A stretch of DNA of 25,763 nucleotides from a virus: the IMG/VR virus record IMGVR_UViG_3300022187_000207, positions 1-25,763 of that record; one strand, written 5' to 3'. A program made the translations under genes and the position numbers. Shown piece after piece: positions 334 to 24,894 of the stretch. Positions within the stretch are counted from its first letter, which is position 1. The number at the start of each line of letters is the position of its first letter. Under the pieces are notes generated by a model. It saw only the letters and a list, made by a program, of their open reading frames with translations, ran no database searches and was not told where the DNA came from.

Positions 334-352
334 GTAATAAGGGGGTTATTAC
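334..352. repeat. Inverted repeat over the ArdC-like stop codon
   Basis: GTAATAA (334-340), five Gs, then TTATTAC (346-352): a perfect 7-bp inverted repeat overlapping the stop codon (349-351). It could form a small hairpin at the 3' end of the message, just ahead of the terminator. Function unknown. Confidence 0.6.
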
Positions 353-1227
353 ATCTTATCCATGATAAGTTGTACAGTTTTGAGAACCGCCTTCATTGAT
401 TGGTGAAGGGTCTCCTTATCGTTGCTACTCCATCCGGCTACATATCCAACGCTATAAGAGCTAGTATCTAAGCCGAGCATATTTGCTACAGTGTATGCTA
501 TGGACTCCGCTTCTACTTCTCTAAGTGGTCGCGGGTCAGTCATATTAAATTCGCGGTCTTCAGCATGTGCGAACATATGTCCAATCTCATGGATTATTGT
601 TTTTAGTTGTTGTGCTTCCGGTCTATCCGATGAGACAACAACTTCTTTATTTGTAAAGTCAGTCCAACCATTTAGGTCTTTAGAGCTCCATGAATCATAT
701 CGGAAATTAAATCCATTATCTTCTACTATCTTAATGAATCTTTGTGTAATCTCTTCGTCAGTCTCACCGGTCACCCAGTCTACTAATTTAGGTATTTCCT
801 CTCCGCCTTCTAGTGCTTCAGTGTCTGCAACATCAAAGACATAAACAACTCTAAAGAATAATATTTCCTCTTCGGTGTCCTTACCATTTACTTTGATAAT
901 TTCTCCGGTCTTTTTGGTCATTGGTGCAAGTTGCTCAATTCTTTTTGGTGCTGTACGCTCTTCACAAGTACACTCAGCATTTTTAAAACTTCTGCATACT
1001 GTACAAGCTACAACAATTCTCTTATGGTCATCTATCCATTGCTTGTAACCTTTTACATAAGTAGCGTGCGGGTTGCTAAAGAATATCAAAAATTGATTAT
1101 TCATAGAACGATTAATGAACCTTGAACTAAAGTCTAAATAGTTTTTTAGCTTCTCCGAATCCTCGAAGGCTTCAACCTTTTGATGTAGGTCTTCTATTAT
1201 TGCTTTAGCTTTTGATTGCTTTTTCAT
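349..1227 (-). CDS. ArdC-like antirestriction protein with zinc metallopeptidase motif
   Basis: The 292-aa protein has an N-terminal part like the ssDNA-binding domain of ArdC antirestriction proteins: roughly residues 10-70, with NNQFLIFF and ATYVKGYKQW. The C-terminal part is metallopeptidase-like, with HEIGH at 213-217 and a downstream EVEAESIAY segment (about 237-245) that can supply the third metal ligand. Known ArdC proteins protect incoming DNA from restriction; that role here is inferred. Four cysteines (75, 78, 86, 88) lie between the two parts, where typical family members have a short KGE-type loop, and suggest an extra zinc knuckle. The start is supported by AGGGAG just upstream. 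The gene stands alone on the minus strand with its own promoter (1260-1288) and terminator (294-322), as expected for an independently expressed early or accessory gene. Family assignment is fairly sure; substrate and activity are not. Confidence 0.8.
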   Translation of the reverse strand: MKKQSKAKAIIEDLHQKVEAFEDSEKLKNYLDFSSRFINRSMNNQFLIFFSNPHATYVKGYKQWIDDHKRIVVACTVCRSFKNAECTCEERTAPKRIEQLAPMTKKTGEIIKVNGKDTEEEILFFRVVYVFDVADTEALEGGEEIPKLVDWVTGETDEEITQRFIKIVEDNGFNFRYDSWSSKDLNGWTDFTNKEVVVSSDRPEAQQLKTIIHEIGHMFAHAEDREFNMTDPRPLREVEAESIAYTVANMLGLDTSSYSVGYVAGWSSNDKETLHQSMKAVLKTVQLIMDKM

Positions 1228-7680: not shown

Positions 7681-10600
7681 ATGTCTAATGAGATTGTAGG
7701 ACCATATTCATTTGGCGAAGAGTGGATTCGAGAAAAAGAAAAACAAGCACAAACAAATATTTTATTTCAACAAAAAAAAGCTGCTGTACAACCTGCACAA
7801 ATAGATAGAGCAAAAGATTTAGCAACTAAATACCCAACAGCTATGAAAGGATTAATTTCTAATGCTGTCAATAAAGGATTTACTGATAAACAAGTAGAAG
7901 ATTTATTGCGATTACAGTATCAAGCTGTTCCTAAGTCACAACCATACAATCCTAACCCTGTAGGTAATGATATAACCAATGCTTATATCCCTATCTATGG
8001 TGATGTGTATGAGGTAAAACAAGCTTCTAAAAACTTTAGAACAGAACCAGTATATGGAACATTGAAAGGTATAGCACGAGTAGCAATGCTTGGTGCAGAA
8101 GGTTTATGGAATGTAACTATGGGTAGGACAGGTAGAGCATTTGTAAAAACTGCTGAGTCATATGAAAAACCATTCCAGGCACAAGTACAAGCTATGTCGA
8201 AAAAAGAACAAGAATTAATTGAACAACATAAAGCTGGTGACCCGAATGTTACTTTATACGATATAGCTGCTCTTAGAGACCAGCAAGAAAAAACAGAAAA
8301 AACAGGAAGAGTAACAGGAGCTGCACTTGCCTTAACTGCATTGTTAAGTGGAAGAAGTTATGGTCATAGCAAAATGACTAGAGAAAGTTTTTTTGATAAT
8401 TGGAAAGATGCTGGAAGTTCTTGGATAGGTGAATCATTTTCACAAGCTAGAGAAGGTATGGGATTTAAAGAGGTTTGGAAAAGTTTAGGTGATGGATTTA
8501 TACCATCAGGACCTATTGTTGCAAAAGCACAAGCAGACCAAGAAGCATTTAAATACAGAGGTAGAAATATAACTATAGGTAGATACATTGAGGATGTTAT
8601 CGGTATAGACCCAAATAGTGCTTTGTATGGTGGTGTTTCTGGTGTAATAGATTTCTATAATGCTTTGGCATTTGACCCAGCTTTAGTTGCAACTAAATCA
8701 GTTAAAGCAATTAATTATTCGAAGTCAGTCATGGGTAAAATAAATAAAGCATTTACTGAGGGGGATTTTGGAAAAATAGCTGATGAAATAGATATCTTTC
8801 TTACTAGTCCTAAATCAAATAAACATTTAGACGCATTGGCAGAAAGTAAAGACTTTAAACAAATTTTTGATTCGGTTAAAGATACTGACATGGCTTTACA
8901 ACTTCTTAAAACAAATACAAGAGATGAAGTAACTAAAGTTGTTAGAGATTATGTTATTAAAAATCAAAGTATTGGCCTACCAAAAGTAACAAGAACTATT
9001 AATAGCATAGGTTATAACAAGAATTTACTTAAAGATATTGGTAGTAGAGATAAAGGATTTTCTAAGTTTGGCGAATGGACACCGACACAAGATTCTTTAT
9101 TTAAAGATACTAATGGTGGTGTAGCAAATTATTCCAGATGGTTAGCAAGTATGGAAATACCAAGAAACGAAGCTAACAAATTGCTTACTGATTTTGCAGA
9201 AGCGTCTGTTAAAGGTGACCAAGTTGCTCAGAAAAATGTTTTATATAAAGATACGCTAACACAGTTAACAAACAAATTAGAAAAAGATGGATTTAGTAAA
9301 TTAGTTATTGACGAACTCAAAAAAGATTTTGCTGAGCTACAAGGTATATTACCTAGTGGTAAAACTGTTGGTAAAACATACTGGGCAAAACTAGATAAAA
9401 CTGCTGGTGGTAAATTTTTAAATCCAATAGAAGCTACATTCAAAGGTCAAAGAAGTATACCAATTAAAGGGCTTGATGATAGTGTTACATTACCTACGCC
9501 ATTTGATATTGGACAACATATGGATGAAGTATGGTCACTAGGTAACCCAAAAGATTTAAAAAGAACCATAGGTACTTTTAATAAATATGCTACTTTACCA
9601 GAATTTAAAATAGCAAATATGATAGATAATACTGCTATAGAATTACCAAAAGGATTAACAACACCTATAGATAAAATACTAGGTAAATCAGTCCCACAAG
9701 TATTTAAAGGATTAAAAAAAGGTAGAGACCAACTTGTAGATGTAGCTTGGAACTTACAAAAGAAATGGACTGGTGCTCAGCTAGTTACTCGTGTTGCTTG
9801 GCCACTAAGAATATTTGCTGAATCGCAATTTAGAATGGGATTAGCTGGTTTAGATAACTGGTTTGAAAATCCTATGGCTATGTGGGTTTGGGGTAACTAC
9901 ACATATGATTTAGCAGGAACTCCGATGAAAGTAGGTAAAGGAGCTAAAGGTGTTGCTTATGGTGCTGGAGTAGAAAATATAGTTGCAAGAAGAGCTAGTT
10001 CTATTTTCGGAAAACAAAATCAAGCAAGTTACATAAATAACACTTGGGAGAGAACATTAAAAGAAGGTGCAGACAGAGCTGGTTATATAAAGTCGTGGCA
10101 AGTAAATCTTAAATGGCCATTAGAAAGTGATTTAGGAAAAGCAATTGCGAATGATATTTTAGAAGGCACTGACTTAGCTGCAACTAAAAATAGTTTCTGG
10201 TCTGGTGATTTAAAGAAAATAAGAGAACAATTAAACGATGTCAAATATGATAATAAAGGTAATCGTACAAGACCTTATACCTCTTTAGAAGATGCTAATA
10301 CTTATGTTGATAATTATAGAGAATGGATTATGGACCTTACTAAAGGTGATGAAGATGTACTAAAAATGATTCGTGATAGAAGAATTGTTACAGCTGATGG
10401 AGATATTCTACCATTAGATAACATAGATAGATTTACTAAGAACAATATACAAGAAATTAGAAAATTTCTTGATACCAAGTATGATGTTGCACCTGATGTA
10501 TTAGCAAGTCCAAAATGGGCAACAGAGCAAAAAGCGTTAGATGAAGCTTTCGAAGCATCACAATATTTATGGTACTGGTTAGGTGAAGCACCAGATGCAG

Positions 10601-12618
10601 CACTAAACAGGATACCTACCTACACACAATATTACTGGACAAGTGTTGGGCAATTAATACCATTCGCAGATGAAGCAGCTTTAAAACATTTTGATAAATT
10701 ATCTAAAGCAGGTGACTTACCACCATCAGTAAAACAAATCTATGAAGCAGGTAAGCGTTCTGCTATTAAAAAATATGGTTCGATTGCTGATGCAGTCAAA
10801 GCAAACCCTGAAGCTAAACTGTCTATAGATGAAATATCAGAAGCATCAAAAGCATTTTCATTAGATGCACACAATACTTTGTTGTATAACCTATCTGAAA
10901 AAGGTTTCTTTGCAGAAGCTACAAGATTAATATTCCCATTCTTTGAACCTTGGAAAGAAGTAGCTTTAAACTATCCACGACTGTTTGCTAAAAATCCTGC
11001 TGGTCTTAGAAAAATACAAATGCTTACAGCTAAAGGACAACAGAGCGGAATACTATATAGAGACCCAACAATAGATGAGTTATTCTATGTAGCTCCGATG
11101 ACTGATATGCAAGAAAACTTGTTTGGTATAGAGTTACCTGAGAGTGTTGATGTACAACAAGTATCGCCATTAGCTGGTGCTAACTTGTTTACTGCTAGTT
11201 ACTATCCAGGATTTGGACCGGTAGTACAACTATCAGTAAAAGCATTAGATAAGTATTTACCAAAGACAAATGAATGGCAAGATATAGAAGACCAAGTATT
11301 TCCATATGGACTAGGCGGTAGAACAGTGTCAGATACTCTCGGTGGTTTATTGCCAACATATCTAGACAACGCTATCAATGCTTATACAGAAGGACTGATA
11401 AACAAAAATGCTTGGTATGACCAAGTAGCTGATGCTACTAAAATATTAACAGTATCTTGGAATGAAGGAATGTTGGATTACGACCCTAGAACAAAAGAAG
11501 GAAGAAAACAATTTGAAGAAGATGCAATAGTTATGGCAAAGAAGTTAACCTACCATAATTCATTAGCTAAATTCTATCAGCCATCATCACCAAGAGAGCA
11601 AGTGAGAATAGGATTAGAGACACCAGGATTTTTAAATCCCCTATTGGTAGAAGATATATTTAGAACATACCTACCTGAAGATATGTCATTTGGAAAATAT
11701 GATGATGATTTATTTAATAGTGTTGTTATTACAGCACTTTATGCACAAGCATATGAAGCAGTTGAACCAGGAGATGAGTACCTAGCTACACAGTTAATTG
11801 CTAGCTTGATAGGTGGAACACCAGATGACTGGGATGATATCTATACAGCAGCTTACTTAGTACAAGGTAAGACAACAACAAAAGGTAAAAAACTTCCATC
11901 TACAGAAGGAGAAGTTAGATTTGAAAGAGAATGGCCAGAGTATGCAGAGAAGTACTCCAGTATTTTTCCTTACTTTGCTCCAGTCGTAGAAGAGTACGAT
12001 ATGCTAGATATTAATTCTTTTTATAACCAAATAGAAGAAGGTGAGAGAGTAAATCTTACTACACAACAAATGTTAGAAAGAGCTCAGGAAAGAGCATTCA
12101 AAGTTATATTTAATCACAGAACTAAACCTTTTAGAGATAGGAGAGATTCACAGGCAGTAGCAGAGAGAGCAAGGATACAAGCAGAGTTACTACAACAATT
12201 TCCTTATGGACTAGGTAGAGATATTGCGACTTATGGAGGTGACATATCACAGGAAGAGATGTTTGCAGAGATAAAAGAAGCAGCTGCTGATTCCTGGATT
12301 ACAGAAAACACTGAAGCAGGTCAAGGATTAAAATTATTTTTCTATGGTGATGAGAATAATAAAGGGTTACTTGATGCACTAGATGAAATTAAAAACTATG
12401 AACCATTAGTAAAAACTACAGAAGATGGAACAAAGGTATATTACACCGATGCACAGGCTTTATCTTATCTACAGAAAAATAAAAAAGCACAAGTTGGTAG
12501 AAATATCTTATTAAAATGGGCACAGCAAATAACTAAAAAACATCCAGAATTTGGTGCTTTGTTTAAAGAAAAACTATTAGGGTATGTAGAATTAACAGTG
12601 ACAGAGGATAAAGAATAA
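7681..12618 (+). CDS. Very large internal virion / DNA-ejection-type protein (1645 aa)
   Basis: This is the largest gene of the window. The product has no enzyme motif I can see, is mostly helical and charged, and has short hydrophobic stretches (about 211-224). Landmarks are TRVAWPLRIFAESQ around W707 and LIFPFFEPWKEV at 1083-1094. I associate both with very large proteins of actinobacterial phages, from memory only. It follows the portal cluster, precedes a lysozyme, and there is no tape-measure or tail-tube set. I therefore infer an internal core protein expelled into the host during DNA entry, comparable in role to gp16 of T7. A structural tail protein is the main alternative. AGGA seven bases before the ATG is the likely ribosome binding site. 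The next gene follows without a gap. Confidence 0.6.
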   Translation: MSNEIVGPYSFGEEWIREKEKQAQTNILFQQKKAAVQPAQIDRAKDLATKYPTAMKGLISNAVNKGFTDKQVEDLLRLQYQAVPKSQPYNPNPVGNDITNAYIPIYGDVYEVKQASKNFRTEPVYGTLKGIARVAMLGAEGLWNVTMGRTGRAFVKTAESYEKPFQAQVQAMSKKEQELIEQHKAGDPNVTLYDIAALRDQQEKTEKTGRVTGAALALTALLSGRSYGHSKMTRESFFDNWKDAGSSWIGESFSQAREGMGFKEVWKSLGDGFIPSGPIVAKAQADQEAFKYRGRNITIGRYIEDVIGIDPNSALYGGVSGVIDFYNALAFDPALVATKSVKAINYSKSVMGKINKAFTEGDFGKIADEIDIFLTSPKSNKHLDALAESKDFKQIFDSVKDTDMALQLLKTNTRDEVTKVVRDYVIKNQSIGLPKVTRTINSIGYNKNLLKDIGSRDKGFSKFGEWTPTQDSLFKDTNGGVANYSRWLASMEIPRNEANKLLTDFAEASVKGDQVAQKNVLYKDTLTQLTNKLEKDGFSKLVIDELKKDFAELQGILPSGKTVGKTYWAKLDKTAGGKFLNPIEATFKGQRSIPIKGLDDSVTLPTPFDIGQHMDEVWSLGNPKDLKRTIGTFNKYATLPEFKIANMIDNTAIELPKGLTTPIDKILGKSVPQVFKGLKKGRDQLVDVAWNLQKKWTGAQLVTRVAWPLRIFAESQFRMGLAGLDNWFENPMAMWVWGNYTYDLAGTPMKVGKGAKGVAYGAGVENIVARRASSIFGKQNQASYINNTWERTLKEGADRAGYIKSWQVNLKWPLESDLGKAIANDILEGTDLAATKNSFWSGDLKKIREQLNDVKYDNKGNRTRPYTSLEDANTYVDNYREWIMDLTKGDEDVLKMIRDRRIVTADGDILPLDNIDRFTKNNIQEIRKFLDTKYDVAPDVLASPKWATEQKALDEAFEASQYLWYWLGEAPDAALNRIPTYTQYYWTSVGQLIPFADEAALKHFDKLSKAGDLPPSVKQIYEAGKRSAIKKYGSIADAVKANPEAKLSIDEISEASKAFSLDAHNTLLYNLSEKGFFAEATRLIFPFFEPWKEVALNYPRLFAKNPAGLRKIQMLTAKGQQSGILYRDPTIDELFYVAPMTDMQENLFGIELPESVDVQQVSPLAGANLFTASYYPGFGPVVQLSVKALDKYLPKTNEWQDIEDQVFPYGLGGRTVSDTLGGLLPTYLDNAINAYTEGLINKNAWYDQVADATKILTVSWNEGMLDYDPRTKEGRKQFEEDAIVMAKKLTYHNSLAKFYQPSSPREQVRIGLETPGFLNPLLVEDIFRTYLPEDMSFGKYDDDLFNSVVITALYAQAYEAVEPGDEYLATQLIASLIGGTPDDWDDIYTAAYLVQGKTTTKGKKLPSTEGEVRFEREWPEYAEKYSSIFPYFAPVVEEYDMLDINSFYNQIEEGERVNLTTQQMLERAQERAFKVIFNHRTKPFRDRRDSQAVAERARIQAELLQQFPYGLGRDIATYGGDISQEEMFAEIKEAAADSWITENTEAGQGLKLFFYGDENNKGLLDALDEIKNYEPLVKTTEDGTKVYYTDAQALSYLQKNKKAQVGRNILLKWAQQITKKHPEFGALFKEKLLGYVELTVTEDKE

Positions 12619-16831: not shown

Positions 16832-16858
16832 TTGACATACAAGATATAGTGGTATAAT
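16832..16858 (+). promoter_or_regulatory. Strong promoter for capsid genes
   Basis: Perfect TTGACA (16832-16837) and perfect TATAAT (16853-16858) with a short 15-nt spacer. TGG before the -10 makes an extended TGnTATAAT element that can offset the short spacing. It is the best promoter in the window and would start a transcript near 16865 for scaffold and major capsid protein. Confidence 0.8.
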
Positions 16859-16864
16859 TAAATT

Positions 16865-17070
16865 ATCGCATAGCGGTAGTCTGCGAATATAAATCGACTC
16901 TGCACATCCGGCTTATGTCTGGCGTATAAGCTGAGTATTTCAATTCGCCTAGTATCGGTACAGCTAGAAGTGGCTGACAATTCTCATTTGTACTTTAATT
17001 ATAACTTGTCGCCTATCGCATTATATTCCCCAGGGTAATGCAGTTAGTAGAAACTGGGAGAGGAGAGAAT
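16865..17070 (+). ncRNA. Structured 5' leader of the capsid transcript
   Basis: About 206 nt of transcribed but untranslated sequence lie between the promoter and the scaffold ATG, whereas neighbouring genes have almost no spacing. Local hairpins can be drawn: TCGCA (16866-16870) with TGCGA (16882-16886); GCTTAT (16911-16916) with ATAAGC (16926-16931); CAGC (16961-16964) with GCTG (16973-16976). The octamer TATCGCAT occurs near both ends (16864-16871 and 17014-17021). GC content looks higher than in the flanking DNA, which fits selection for structure. It ends in the purine-rich binding site GGGAGAGGAG. No tRNA or known riboswitch is recognised. Confidence 0.5.
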
Positions 17071-17532
17071 ATGGAAAACGAAGTAGAAAATACAGTAGAA
17101 GAAACACAGGAAGAAAGTAATCCTGTATCTCAGTTAAGAGAGCAATTAAAAAAAGCTCAATCTGAGAATAAGGAATTGAAGGCCTTTAAAGCAGATGCTG
17201 TTTTTAAAGAAGCAGGGTTTGACACTTCAACCGGTGAAGGCAAGGCATTAAAAAACTTATATGATGGTGAGTTACAAGCAGATGCAATTAAGCAGTTTGC
17301 TTCTCAAGAGTTCGGATGGGGTCAAGCTCCAGCTGAAGCAACAGAGCAAGAGGCACAAAAGCAAAGAGTTGTAACTAGCCAAGAAAACTTAGATACTGTT
17401 ATTGAAGCATCAGTTCCAGTAGAACCTGTAGGACTAGATGACCAAATAAATCAGGCACAAGCTGATGGTGATTGGGCTACAAGTTCCGCTCTTAAAGCAG
17501 ACAAATTAAAACAATTATTAAAAGATAAATAG
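17071..17532 (+). CDS. Capsid scaffolding protein
   Basis: I place the start at ATG 17071 (MENEVENTVEETQEES), five bases after AGGAG (17061-17065). The ATG at 17038 in the same frame lacks a ribosome binding site and would add 11 unlikely residues. The 153-aa product is very acidic at the N-terminus, has a heptad-like helix (SQLREQLKKAQSENKELKAF, about 20-39) and a basic helical C-terminus (KADKLKQLLKDK). Length, charge pattern and place directly before the major capsid protein are typical of scaffolds, whose C-terminal basic helix binds the shell. It is first in the transcript from the promoter at 16832. Confidence 0.75.
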   Translation: MENEVENTVEETQEESNPVSQLREQLKKAQSENKELKAFKADAVFKEAGFDTSTGEGKALKNLYDGELQADAIKQFASQEFGWGQAPAEATEQEAQKQRVVTSQENLDTVIEASVPVEPVGLDDQINQAQADGDWATSSALKADKLKQLLKDK

Positions 17533-17546
17533 AAAGGACCTAAGAA

Positions 17547-18485
17547 ATGGGTGCAGTATCAGGACTCGGCGATTCTTATGACTTGCCGAATTATGTAGGG
17601 GAACTCTTTAATGTTACTCCTAACGACACTCCTTTTCTATCCGCTATTGGTGGGATGACTGGTGGTAAATCAGTAACCTCTAAACAATTTACTTGGCAAA
17701 CAGTAGATAACGCTGCTGCTGCTCAGACAGTTGCATTAGAAGGTGCAGACCCAACATTCGCAGAAAGAACAAGAAGTGAAGTAATAAATGTTACACAAAT
17801 TATGCAATATGGTGTTAATGTTTCTTACACAAAACAAGCAGCAACTGGAAACCTTAGTGGACAATCCATTATTGGTAACCAACCAGTTCAAGATGAATTG
17901 GCCTTCCAGTTAGACATGGCTCTTAAACGAGCAGCAAGAGACATCGAGTTCTCTTTCTTACAAGGTACATATGTAGCAGATACAGACATGGCCACAGAAA
18001 GAAAAACAAGAGGTATCTTAGAAGCTATCACAACTACAGAAGTTGCTGGTGGTGCTGCTGCTTTAAGTCAAACAATGATTGAATCAGCATTAAAAGGAAT
18101 GGCGGACTCAGGTGCTCCATTTGAAATGCCAGTCATTATGGCTAACAGCTTCCAAAAGCAAAAACTATCATCAATCTACTCAAGTGCTTTAGCTTTAGCA
18201 CCAAGAGATAGAAACATTGGTGGCGTTAATATCACAACAATCGAAACTGACTTCGGTCAAGTTGGAATTGTTTATGATAGACACATGCCAATAGATGATG
18301 TTGCTATTGTAGACTTGGCTTTTTGTAAGCCAGTATTCTTGGATATTCCAGGAAAGGGACACTTCTTCGTAGAGCCATTGGCTCAATCCGGAGCAGCTTA
18401 TAAGTTCCAAGTGTATGGAGAAATCGGACTTGAATATGGTCCAGAACAATTCCATGCTAAAATAACAAACCTAGCTACCTCCTAA
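17547..18485 (+). CDS. Major capsid protein, SU10-like (HK97 fold)
   Basis: The 312-aa protein starts MGAVSGLGDSYDLPNYVGEL, with AAAGGACC upstream. The N-terminal TPNDTPFLSAIGG segment, the central FLQGTY and the C-terminal KGHFFVEPLAQSGAAYKF agree with the SU10 major capsid protein family (DUF5309), which has the HK97 fold and builds the icosahedral shell. It is shorter than HK97 gp5 and has no protease or delta-domain extension, consistent with a separate scaffold encoded 14 bases upstream. Its stop lies in the palindrome at 18479-18492. A stable hairpin follows at 18510-18537 before the connector gene. Confidence 0.88.
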   Translation: MGAVSGLGDSYDLPNYVGELFNVTPNDTPFLSAIGGMTGGKSVTSKQFTWQTVDNAAAAQTVALEGADPTFAERTRSEVINVTQIMQYGVNVSYTKQAATGNLSGQSIIGNQPVQDELAFQLDMALKRAARDIEFSFLQGTYVADTDMATERKTRGILEAITTTEVAGGAAALSQTMIESALKGMADSGAPFEMPVIMANSFQKQKLSSIYSSALALAPRDRNIGGVNITTIETDFGQVGIVYDRHMPIDDVAIVDLAFCKPVFLDIPGKGHFFVEPLAQSGAAYKFQVYGEIGLEYGPEQFHAKITNLATS

Positions 18486-18492: not shown

Positions 18493-18509
18493 ATAGATAG
18501 TATATTTAT

Positions 18510-18537
18510 TAGAGGGAGATAAATACTTCTCCCTCTA
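18510..18537 (+). other. Stable 10-bp hairpin after the capsid gene
   Basis: TAGAGGGAGA (18510-18519) pairs perfectly with TCTCCCTCTA (18528-18537) across an 8-nt loop. No T run follows, so it is not a standard terminator. A 3' stabiliser of the abundant capsid message, a processing site, or partial attenuation of the downstream connector and tail genes are the usual roles of such hairpins. Confidence 0.75.
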
Positions 18538-18552
18538 GTAATATGGAGATAT

Positions 18553-24723: not shown

Positions 24724-24894
24724 ATGATTGACAGCATTGCATACACAGGATACGAAACAATGGTTAATGTTGCTTATGATGATGGAAAGATTGTAGCTTG
24801 TGATGAAAGTAATTCTCTTGTACAAGAGTGGTTAAATTTATCAGAAGATAATACAATAGATGGTACTGCTAATACCTATGTTGAAGGAGCATAA
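24724..24894 (+). CDS. Small acidic protein (56 aa) between fibre genes
   Basis: ATG (24724-24726) lies directly at the end of the previous gene (TAA followed by ATG). The product begins MIDSIAYTGYETMVNVAYDD and ends at TAA 24892-24894. It is acidic, has one Cys, and looks like a small alpha/beta protein. No family recognised. Its last codons contain AAGGAG, which serves the next start, and the two genes are contiguous. Position suggests a fibre accessory or chaperone-like role, which is an inference. Confidence 0.7.
   Translation: MIDSIAYTGYETMVNVAYDDGKIVACDESNSLVQEWLNLSEDNTIDGTANTYVEGA

Follow-up and report, generated by a model that had tools for sequence, protein, structure and literature searches.

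Among structural-protein operons, the ribosomal-protein leaders of rpsO (S15) and the alpha operon (S4) carry a pseudoknot that adjoins or covers the ribosome-binding site, tmRNA contains four pseudoknots in one RNA, and eukaryotic RNA viruses possess tandem H-type pseudoknot domains in an untranslated region. In the phage T4, the leader of gene 32 contains one pseudoknot of ~28 nt, followed by an unstructured UUAAA tract that is bound cooperatively (PMC535899). The tisB mRNA of E. coli combines a sequestered ribosome-binding site with one 5' pseudoknot, which binds protein S1 and the 30S subunit and on which standby translation depends (PMC7708055). Here, sequence comparison identifies a conserved RNA leader at positions 16864-17060 in an uncultured virus, preceded by a consensus promoter and followed by the scaffold-capsid genes. 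A leader of four tandem pseudoknots, such as the one described below, is not known to us from any bacterial or phage mRNA and, to our knowledge, structured leaders on the capsid mRNAs of tailed phages have hardly been described.

The window analysed comprises the 25,763 nt of the IMG/VR virus record IMGVR_UViG_3300022187_000207. The stop of the upstream gene (16809) and the ATG of the putative scaffold gene (17071) are separated by 261 nt, whereas the remaining gaps in the gene cluster range from -38 to 14 nt, with the exception of 67 nt after the capsid gene. This bears out the unusually long gap before the scaffold described in the earlier note, which had also placed a perfect extended -10 promoter ~210 nt before the scaffold start; the distance from the end of the promoter (16858) to the ATG is 212 nt. 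The main features of the locus are as follows.

16832-16858, plus strand: sigma-70-type promoter, with TTGACA at 16832-16837, a 15-nt spacer and the extended -10 element TGGTATAAT at 16850-16858
16864-16866, plus strand: predicted transcription start, 0-2 nt 5' of the first pair of pseudoknot 1, placed from the spacing to the -10 box
17061-17065, plus strand: Shine-Dalgarno sequence AGGAG, 2 nt 3' of pseudoknot 4 and 5 nt 5' of the ATG
17071-17532, plus strand: putative scaffold gene, first of the transcript, 153 aa, PHROG 7813, conserved in position and sequence
17547-18485, plus strand: major capsid gene, SU10_MCP (PF17236, E 4e-78)

The product of 17071-17532 would be the scaffold, judging by its synteny with a gene annotated as head scaffolding protein in an actinophage. 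The promoter matches the consensus and, from its sequence, is rated strong. From viral contigs we collected and aligned 83 homologous leaders, all distinct (alignment A2). Among these, TATAAT is perfect in 62 and the TGn motif is present in 57, while the -10 box lies exactly 7 nt 5' of pseudoknot 1 (PK1) in 59 and 7-8 nt in 69. Given this constant spacing, the transcript should begin at PK1. The higher G+C content noticed earlier was also found, with 42.1% in the leader as compared to 36.1% in the upstream gene, 37.9% in the scaffold gene and 35.2% in the whole window. The octamer reported near both ends, TATCGCAT, is indeed present at 16864 and 17014. Among the relatives, the second copy is mostly retained and the first is variable (TATCGGAT, TATAGCCT); since the first copy is not conserved, we dropped the repeat as a meaningful element, and the repeat itself is probably meaningless.

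Elsewhere in the window, a seeming 171-nt gap at 24724-24894 corresponds to a 56-aa open reading frame (ATGATTGACAGC...TAA), and a very large protein of 1645 aa is encoded at 7681-12618, between portal-side genes and lysozyme. The gene at 349-1227 (minus strand), transcribed opposite to the structural genes, encodes a protein with an ArdC/IrrE-like metalloprotease domain (PF06114; PHROG 87, metallo-protease; PHROG 7245, anti-restriction).

Reading the covariation in alignment A2 by hand, we propose a leader fold of four consecutive H-type pseudoknots with 50 pairs. In each unit, the loop of a hairpin forms a second helix with bases just 3' of the hairpin, and the geometry of all four is similar, with ~2-5 nt in loop 1, 0-2 nt in loop 2 and ~9-12 nt in loop 3.

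16866-16903, plus strand: pseudoknot 1 (PK1), with P1 at 16866-16869/16883-16886 and pk1 at 16873-16876/16900-16903
16879-16881/16896-16898, plus strand: optional extension of PK1
16909-16949, plus strand: pseudoknot 2 (PK2), with P2 at 16909-16915/16927-16933 and pk2 at 16921-16924/16946-16949
16958-17013, plus strand: pseudoknot 3 (PK3), with P3 at 16958-16962/16989-16993 plus 16966-16969/16981-16984
16972-16974 and 16976-16980 with 17006-17013, plus strand: pk3, the loop helix of PK3
17018-17058, plus strand: pseudoknot 4 (PK4), with P4 at 17018-17023/17036-17041 and pk4 at 17029-17033/17054-17058

The helices keep their pairing through different sequences. All 83 leaders pair pk1, as GCGG/CTGC, GCAA/TTGC, GTGG/CTAC or GTAG/CTAC, and the strands of P1 alternate between TCGC/GCGA, TCGG/CCGA, ACGC/GCGT and AGCC/GGCT. 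Compensatory types were likewise found for pk2 (GGCG/CGCC, AAGCG/CGCTT, CTACG/CGTAG, CTGCG/CGCAG, CAGCG/CGCTG), and pk4 occurs as CCCAG/CTGGG, CCAAG/CTTGG or CACAG/CTGTG. The alignment does not keep the outer stem of P3 in register; scored sequence by sequence, this stem gave 5 of 5 pairs in 83/83 sequences with six strand combinations. Nearly invariant, pk3 shows a single compensatory class, from GACAA/TTGTC to GACTA/TAGTC. Identity is at least 97% at 27 unpaired positions, among them the TATC linker 5' of PK4 and a GT in the PK3 loop. The Shine-Dalgarno sequence, which in relatives reads AGGAG, GGAG or similar, is unpaired in the conserved structure.

The several hairpins seen by the earlier note did not hold up as a nested fold: the minimum free energy structure is no better than that of shuffled sequences (z +0.62, with 147 of 200 shuffles as good), and four chained H-type pseudoknots stand in their place. 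Since nested folding cannot draw pseudoknots, it is blind to most of this structure. RNAalifold also misses most of it, still drawing parts of P2, P4, pk1 and pk3. It further proposes a 5-bp hairpin with a GAAG loop (AGCTA/TGGCT, 16962-16966/16971-16975) that would break PK3; most of its pairs are retained in relatives, with one-sided changes only, and it may be a switch or a product of chance. A search of the single sequence for chained H-type pseudoknots returned four in the window, with a score reached by none of 60 dinucleotide shuffles. The same search was weaker in two divergent relatives, where 0/60 and 3/60 shuffles reached the score.

Standard pairs fill 93.0% of the cells of the 50 pairs in the alignment, against 36.9-42.2% when the partners are slid by 1-3 columns. 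The covarying pairs among relatives that the earlier note had looked to were found in the 83 leaders: both-sided changes occur in 18 pairs and 206 cells, as compared to 9.7±1.5 pairs and 61.6±10.0 cells in shuffles, none of which (0/500) scored as high. Because relatedness inflates covariation counts, we also simulated the columns along trees (300 simulations, two trees). Under this null, no more than 1 of 300 simulations matched or exceeded the paired fraction of P2, pk2, P4 or pk4, and for pk1 the count was 1 and 0 of 300, bearing in mind that the leaders are mosaic and a single tree only approximates their history. Weaker results were obtained for pk3 (18/300), P3b (5-6) and P1 (44-64), the last because the P1 classes are misaligned in the MAFFT alignment. 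Compensatory double changes fell on 47-60 branches in the phylogenetic analysis. In PK4, both sides had changed in 47 cells, where the phylogenetic null gave 4.9 (0/300). A strict all-against-all phylogenetic test of ~25,000 column pairs yielded five at E<0.05, the top three of which are structure pairs and the other two lie outside the structure. The partner strands are tightly linked, with a Cramer V of 0.98 for pk2 and 1.00 for pk4. Most of the between-module values are far lower, the pattern anticipated for modules that recombine while pairing is kept. The free combination of PK1, PK2 and PK4 types suggests that the leaders are mosaics recombined at module borders. Taken over the alignment, the RNA structure is real and strongly supported.

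A noncoding, conserved stretch with an octamer repeat could instead be a DNA element (a packaging, recombination or attachment site) or conceal a small gene. Within the structure pairs, however, G·U accounts for 229 cells and A·C for 4, an asymmetry that is expected only for RNA of the plus strand; the signal therefore comes from RNA transcribed from that strand, and a DNA site was rejected on these counts. A conserved small reading frame, the other point raised by the earlier note, was absent from both strands among the 83 relatives, the commonest frame of at least 12 aa occurring in only 22 of them, and the hidden gene was rejected as well. We regard either form of this explanation as barely credible.

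No match to the leader was found among the 4227 families of Rfam 15, up to an E-value of 5, in the window or in five relatives, in agreement with the earlier remark that it belongs to no recognised family. ARAGORN predicted 0 genes, and the leader contains no conserved reading frame, tRNA-like domain or tag frame. A search of open-access literature gave no description of the element, and an earlier one may exist among subscription papers. The size of ~200 nt, the promoter of its own and the setting among head genes would also suit a separate trans-acting or structural RNA transcribed from here, such as a packaging or procapsid RNA (cf. the phi29 pRNA). We consider this very unlikely: no terminator could be recognised upstream of the scaffold, PK4 runs up to the Shine-Dalgarno sequence, relatives preserve the spacing to the ATG, and Rfam gave no match.

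Searching IMG/VR with the capsid protein yielded 80 loci. The gap between the upstream gene and the scaffold measures 235-270 nt in most of them and about 420-1230 nt in the rest, where the surplus sequence lies further upstream; the last ~210 nt can be aligned in all. At loci L006, L010, L017, L026, L028, L032 and L059, the surplus ends in a terminator-like hairpin (AATAGTGGG..CCCACTATT) directly 5' of the leader promoter. With a strict pattern taken from the most conserved stretch, we obtained 112 viral matches in IMG/VR. The same upstream gene is present in all of them save one, which is cut on its 5' side and carries the scaffold, and the scaffold follows wherever the contig reaches far enough downstream. 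No other genomic context was found, also with looser viral patterns filtered by a covariance model. Loose-pattern matches in bacterial genomes were not confirmed by the covariance model and were taken as chance. The mean pairwise DNA identity is 77.6% for the leader, 72.3% for the scaffold and 79.3% for the capsid gene.

The identity of capsid relatives jumps from about 72-74% to 57% or less, and the unfiltered covariance model found no leader in 15 uncultured relatives at 48-57% identity. By their capsid, the closest isolated phages infect Actinobacteria. In Mendokysei, B22 and Dulem virus 32, only 69-201 nt precede the scaffold, with no covariance-model match. A DNA similarity search of a phage collection gave no match, and a host search in two marine genomes was empty. 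The carrier phages are uncultured and mostly marine-looking.

Additional structure was found on the other side of the capsid gene.

18506-18541, plus strand: 14-bp hairpin after the capsid stop, without a U run, with arms TTATTAGAGGGAGA/TCTCCCTCTAGTAA

This hairpin, of 13-16 bp, is kept in 62 of 63 relatives, and its variants in length and sequence retain pairing (for example TTATTAGGGAGAGAA/TTCTCTCCCTAGTAA). It may be a 3' protection or stabilising element, or a processing element, of the scaffold-capsid mRNA. As the leader and this hairpin are both conserved, scaffold and capsid are bracketed by RNA structure.

The leader most likely acts in cis and, from its arrangement, would control the translation and/or stability of the scaffold-capsid mRNA. 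We assign a probability of roughly 60% to the reading that 16864-17060 is the 5' leader of this mRNA, folds into four pseudoknots and acts in cis at the post-transcriptional level. The earlier proposal of a regulatory RNA for capsid synthesis thus stands in its structural part, as comparison of the leaders establishes that the RNA is structured, conserved, read from the plus strand and exclusive to this context, and where it lies with respect to the promoter and the Shine-Dalgarno sequence; the regulation itself we infer, along with the 5' end, shielding, gating, a ligand and the post-transcriptional mode of action.

Located at the extreme 5' end of the transcript, PK1 would shield it against decay. 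PK4, ending 2 nt before the Shine-Dalgarno sequence, lies within the expected 30S footprint, and its folding state could set the access of ribosomes; such gating is not forced, since the Shine-Dalgarno sequence itself is unpaired. The near-invariance of PK3 and of the linker bases points to a factor that recognises them, for which a phage protein (unassembled scaffold or capsid) or a host component (the 30S subunit or protein S1) would be candidates. Two modes fit these features and are compatible with each other: gating by PK4 with a factor reading the invariant core, and a chain that shields the mRNA or recruits 30S and S1.

It is possible, though less likely than not, that the chain boosts expression constitutively, shielding the 5' end and/or recruiting 30S through S1 as a standby site. 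No ligand would then be sensed, and the hairpin after the capsid gene would protect the 3' flank. The structure begins 0-2 nt from the predicted transcript start, the 3' hairpin is conserved and the promoter is strong, and the binding of S1 and 30S by the 5' pseudoknot of tisB provides a precedent (PMC7708055). Nevertheless, the 27 near-identical unpaired positions and the near-invariant PK3 exceed what a passive shield needs, and with an open Shine-Dalgarno sequence a standby site is not obviously needed.

As a more specific form of the preferred cis-acting reading, unassembled scaffold or capsid protein could bind the pseudoknots and block ribosomes or hasten decay, so that synthesis would match assembly. 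The exclusive linkage to scaffold and capsid, the adjacency of PK4 to the Shine-Dalgarno sequence and the invariant loop and linker bases are consistent with such autogenous control. There is a phage precedent in the scaffolding protein of P22, which reportedly represses its own synthesis post-transcriptionally, as described decades ago, by a mechanism said to be unsolved. Another is T4 gp32, whose own mRNA leader contains a pseudoknot to which it binds (PMC535899). On the other hand, the identity of the leader follows that of the capsid only weakly (r 0.30) and that of the scaffold moderately (r 0.49), and PK1 has several exchangeable forms. We rate this reading as rather unlikely. We would hold still more tentatively that the four pseudoknots are a sensor, in a dsDNA phage, of the pool of unassembled scaffold or capsid that tunes translation or decay of the capsid mRNA, and represent a new class of RNA. 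If they were, head assembly would be coupled to capsid synthesis.

The leader is present in more than 100 uncultured viral contigs, is better conserved than the scaffold gene and is absent from Rfam. A capsid mRNA that opens with four pseudoknots, the last of them adjoining the ribosome-binding site, suggests that phages carrying the leader control capsid production through RNA structure. Its location exactly on scaffold and capsid makes the post-transcriptional tuning of head-protein synthesis in tailed phages directly testable, and four natural pseudoknots with known compensatory variants offer material for the bench.

In comparison with known systems, the leader resembles described leader pseudoknots in position and is a member of no family tested. 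Like tmRNA, it has four pseudoknots, in this case within an mRNA leader that lacks a tRNA-like domain and a tag frame. It differs from the rpsO/S15 and alpha operon/S4 leaders in its sequence, its four units and its phage genes. With the domains of eukaryotic RNA viruses it shares an H-type chain in an untranslated region, a likeness of architecture alone that implies no relation in sequence. As in the tisB standby site, a pseudoknot is located near the 5' end of the mRNA, far upstream of the start codon, but here AGGAG (17061-17065) is left unpaired, and the leader is taken up entirely by four pseudoknots. The gene 32 operator of T4 and RB69 likewise consists of a phage 5' leader with a pseudoknot upstream of the Shine-Dalgarno sequence at the translation initiation region, in cis before a stoichiometrically important protein. 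Unlike T4 gene 32, the present leader has four pseudoknots, no UUAAA or UAAA tract and a PK4 that reaches to 2 nt before the Shine-Dalgarno sequence, and it precedes a scaffold and an SU10-type capsid instead of a single-stranded DNA-binding protein. T4 gene 32 and tisB are the nearest documented analogues, and the architecture of the leader matches neither.
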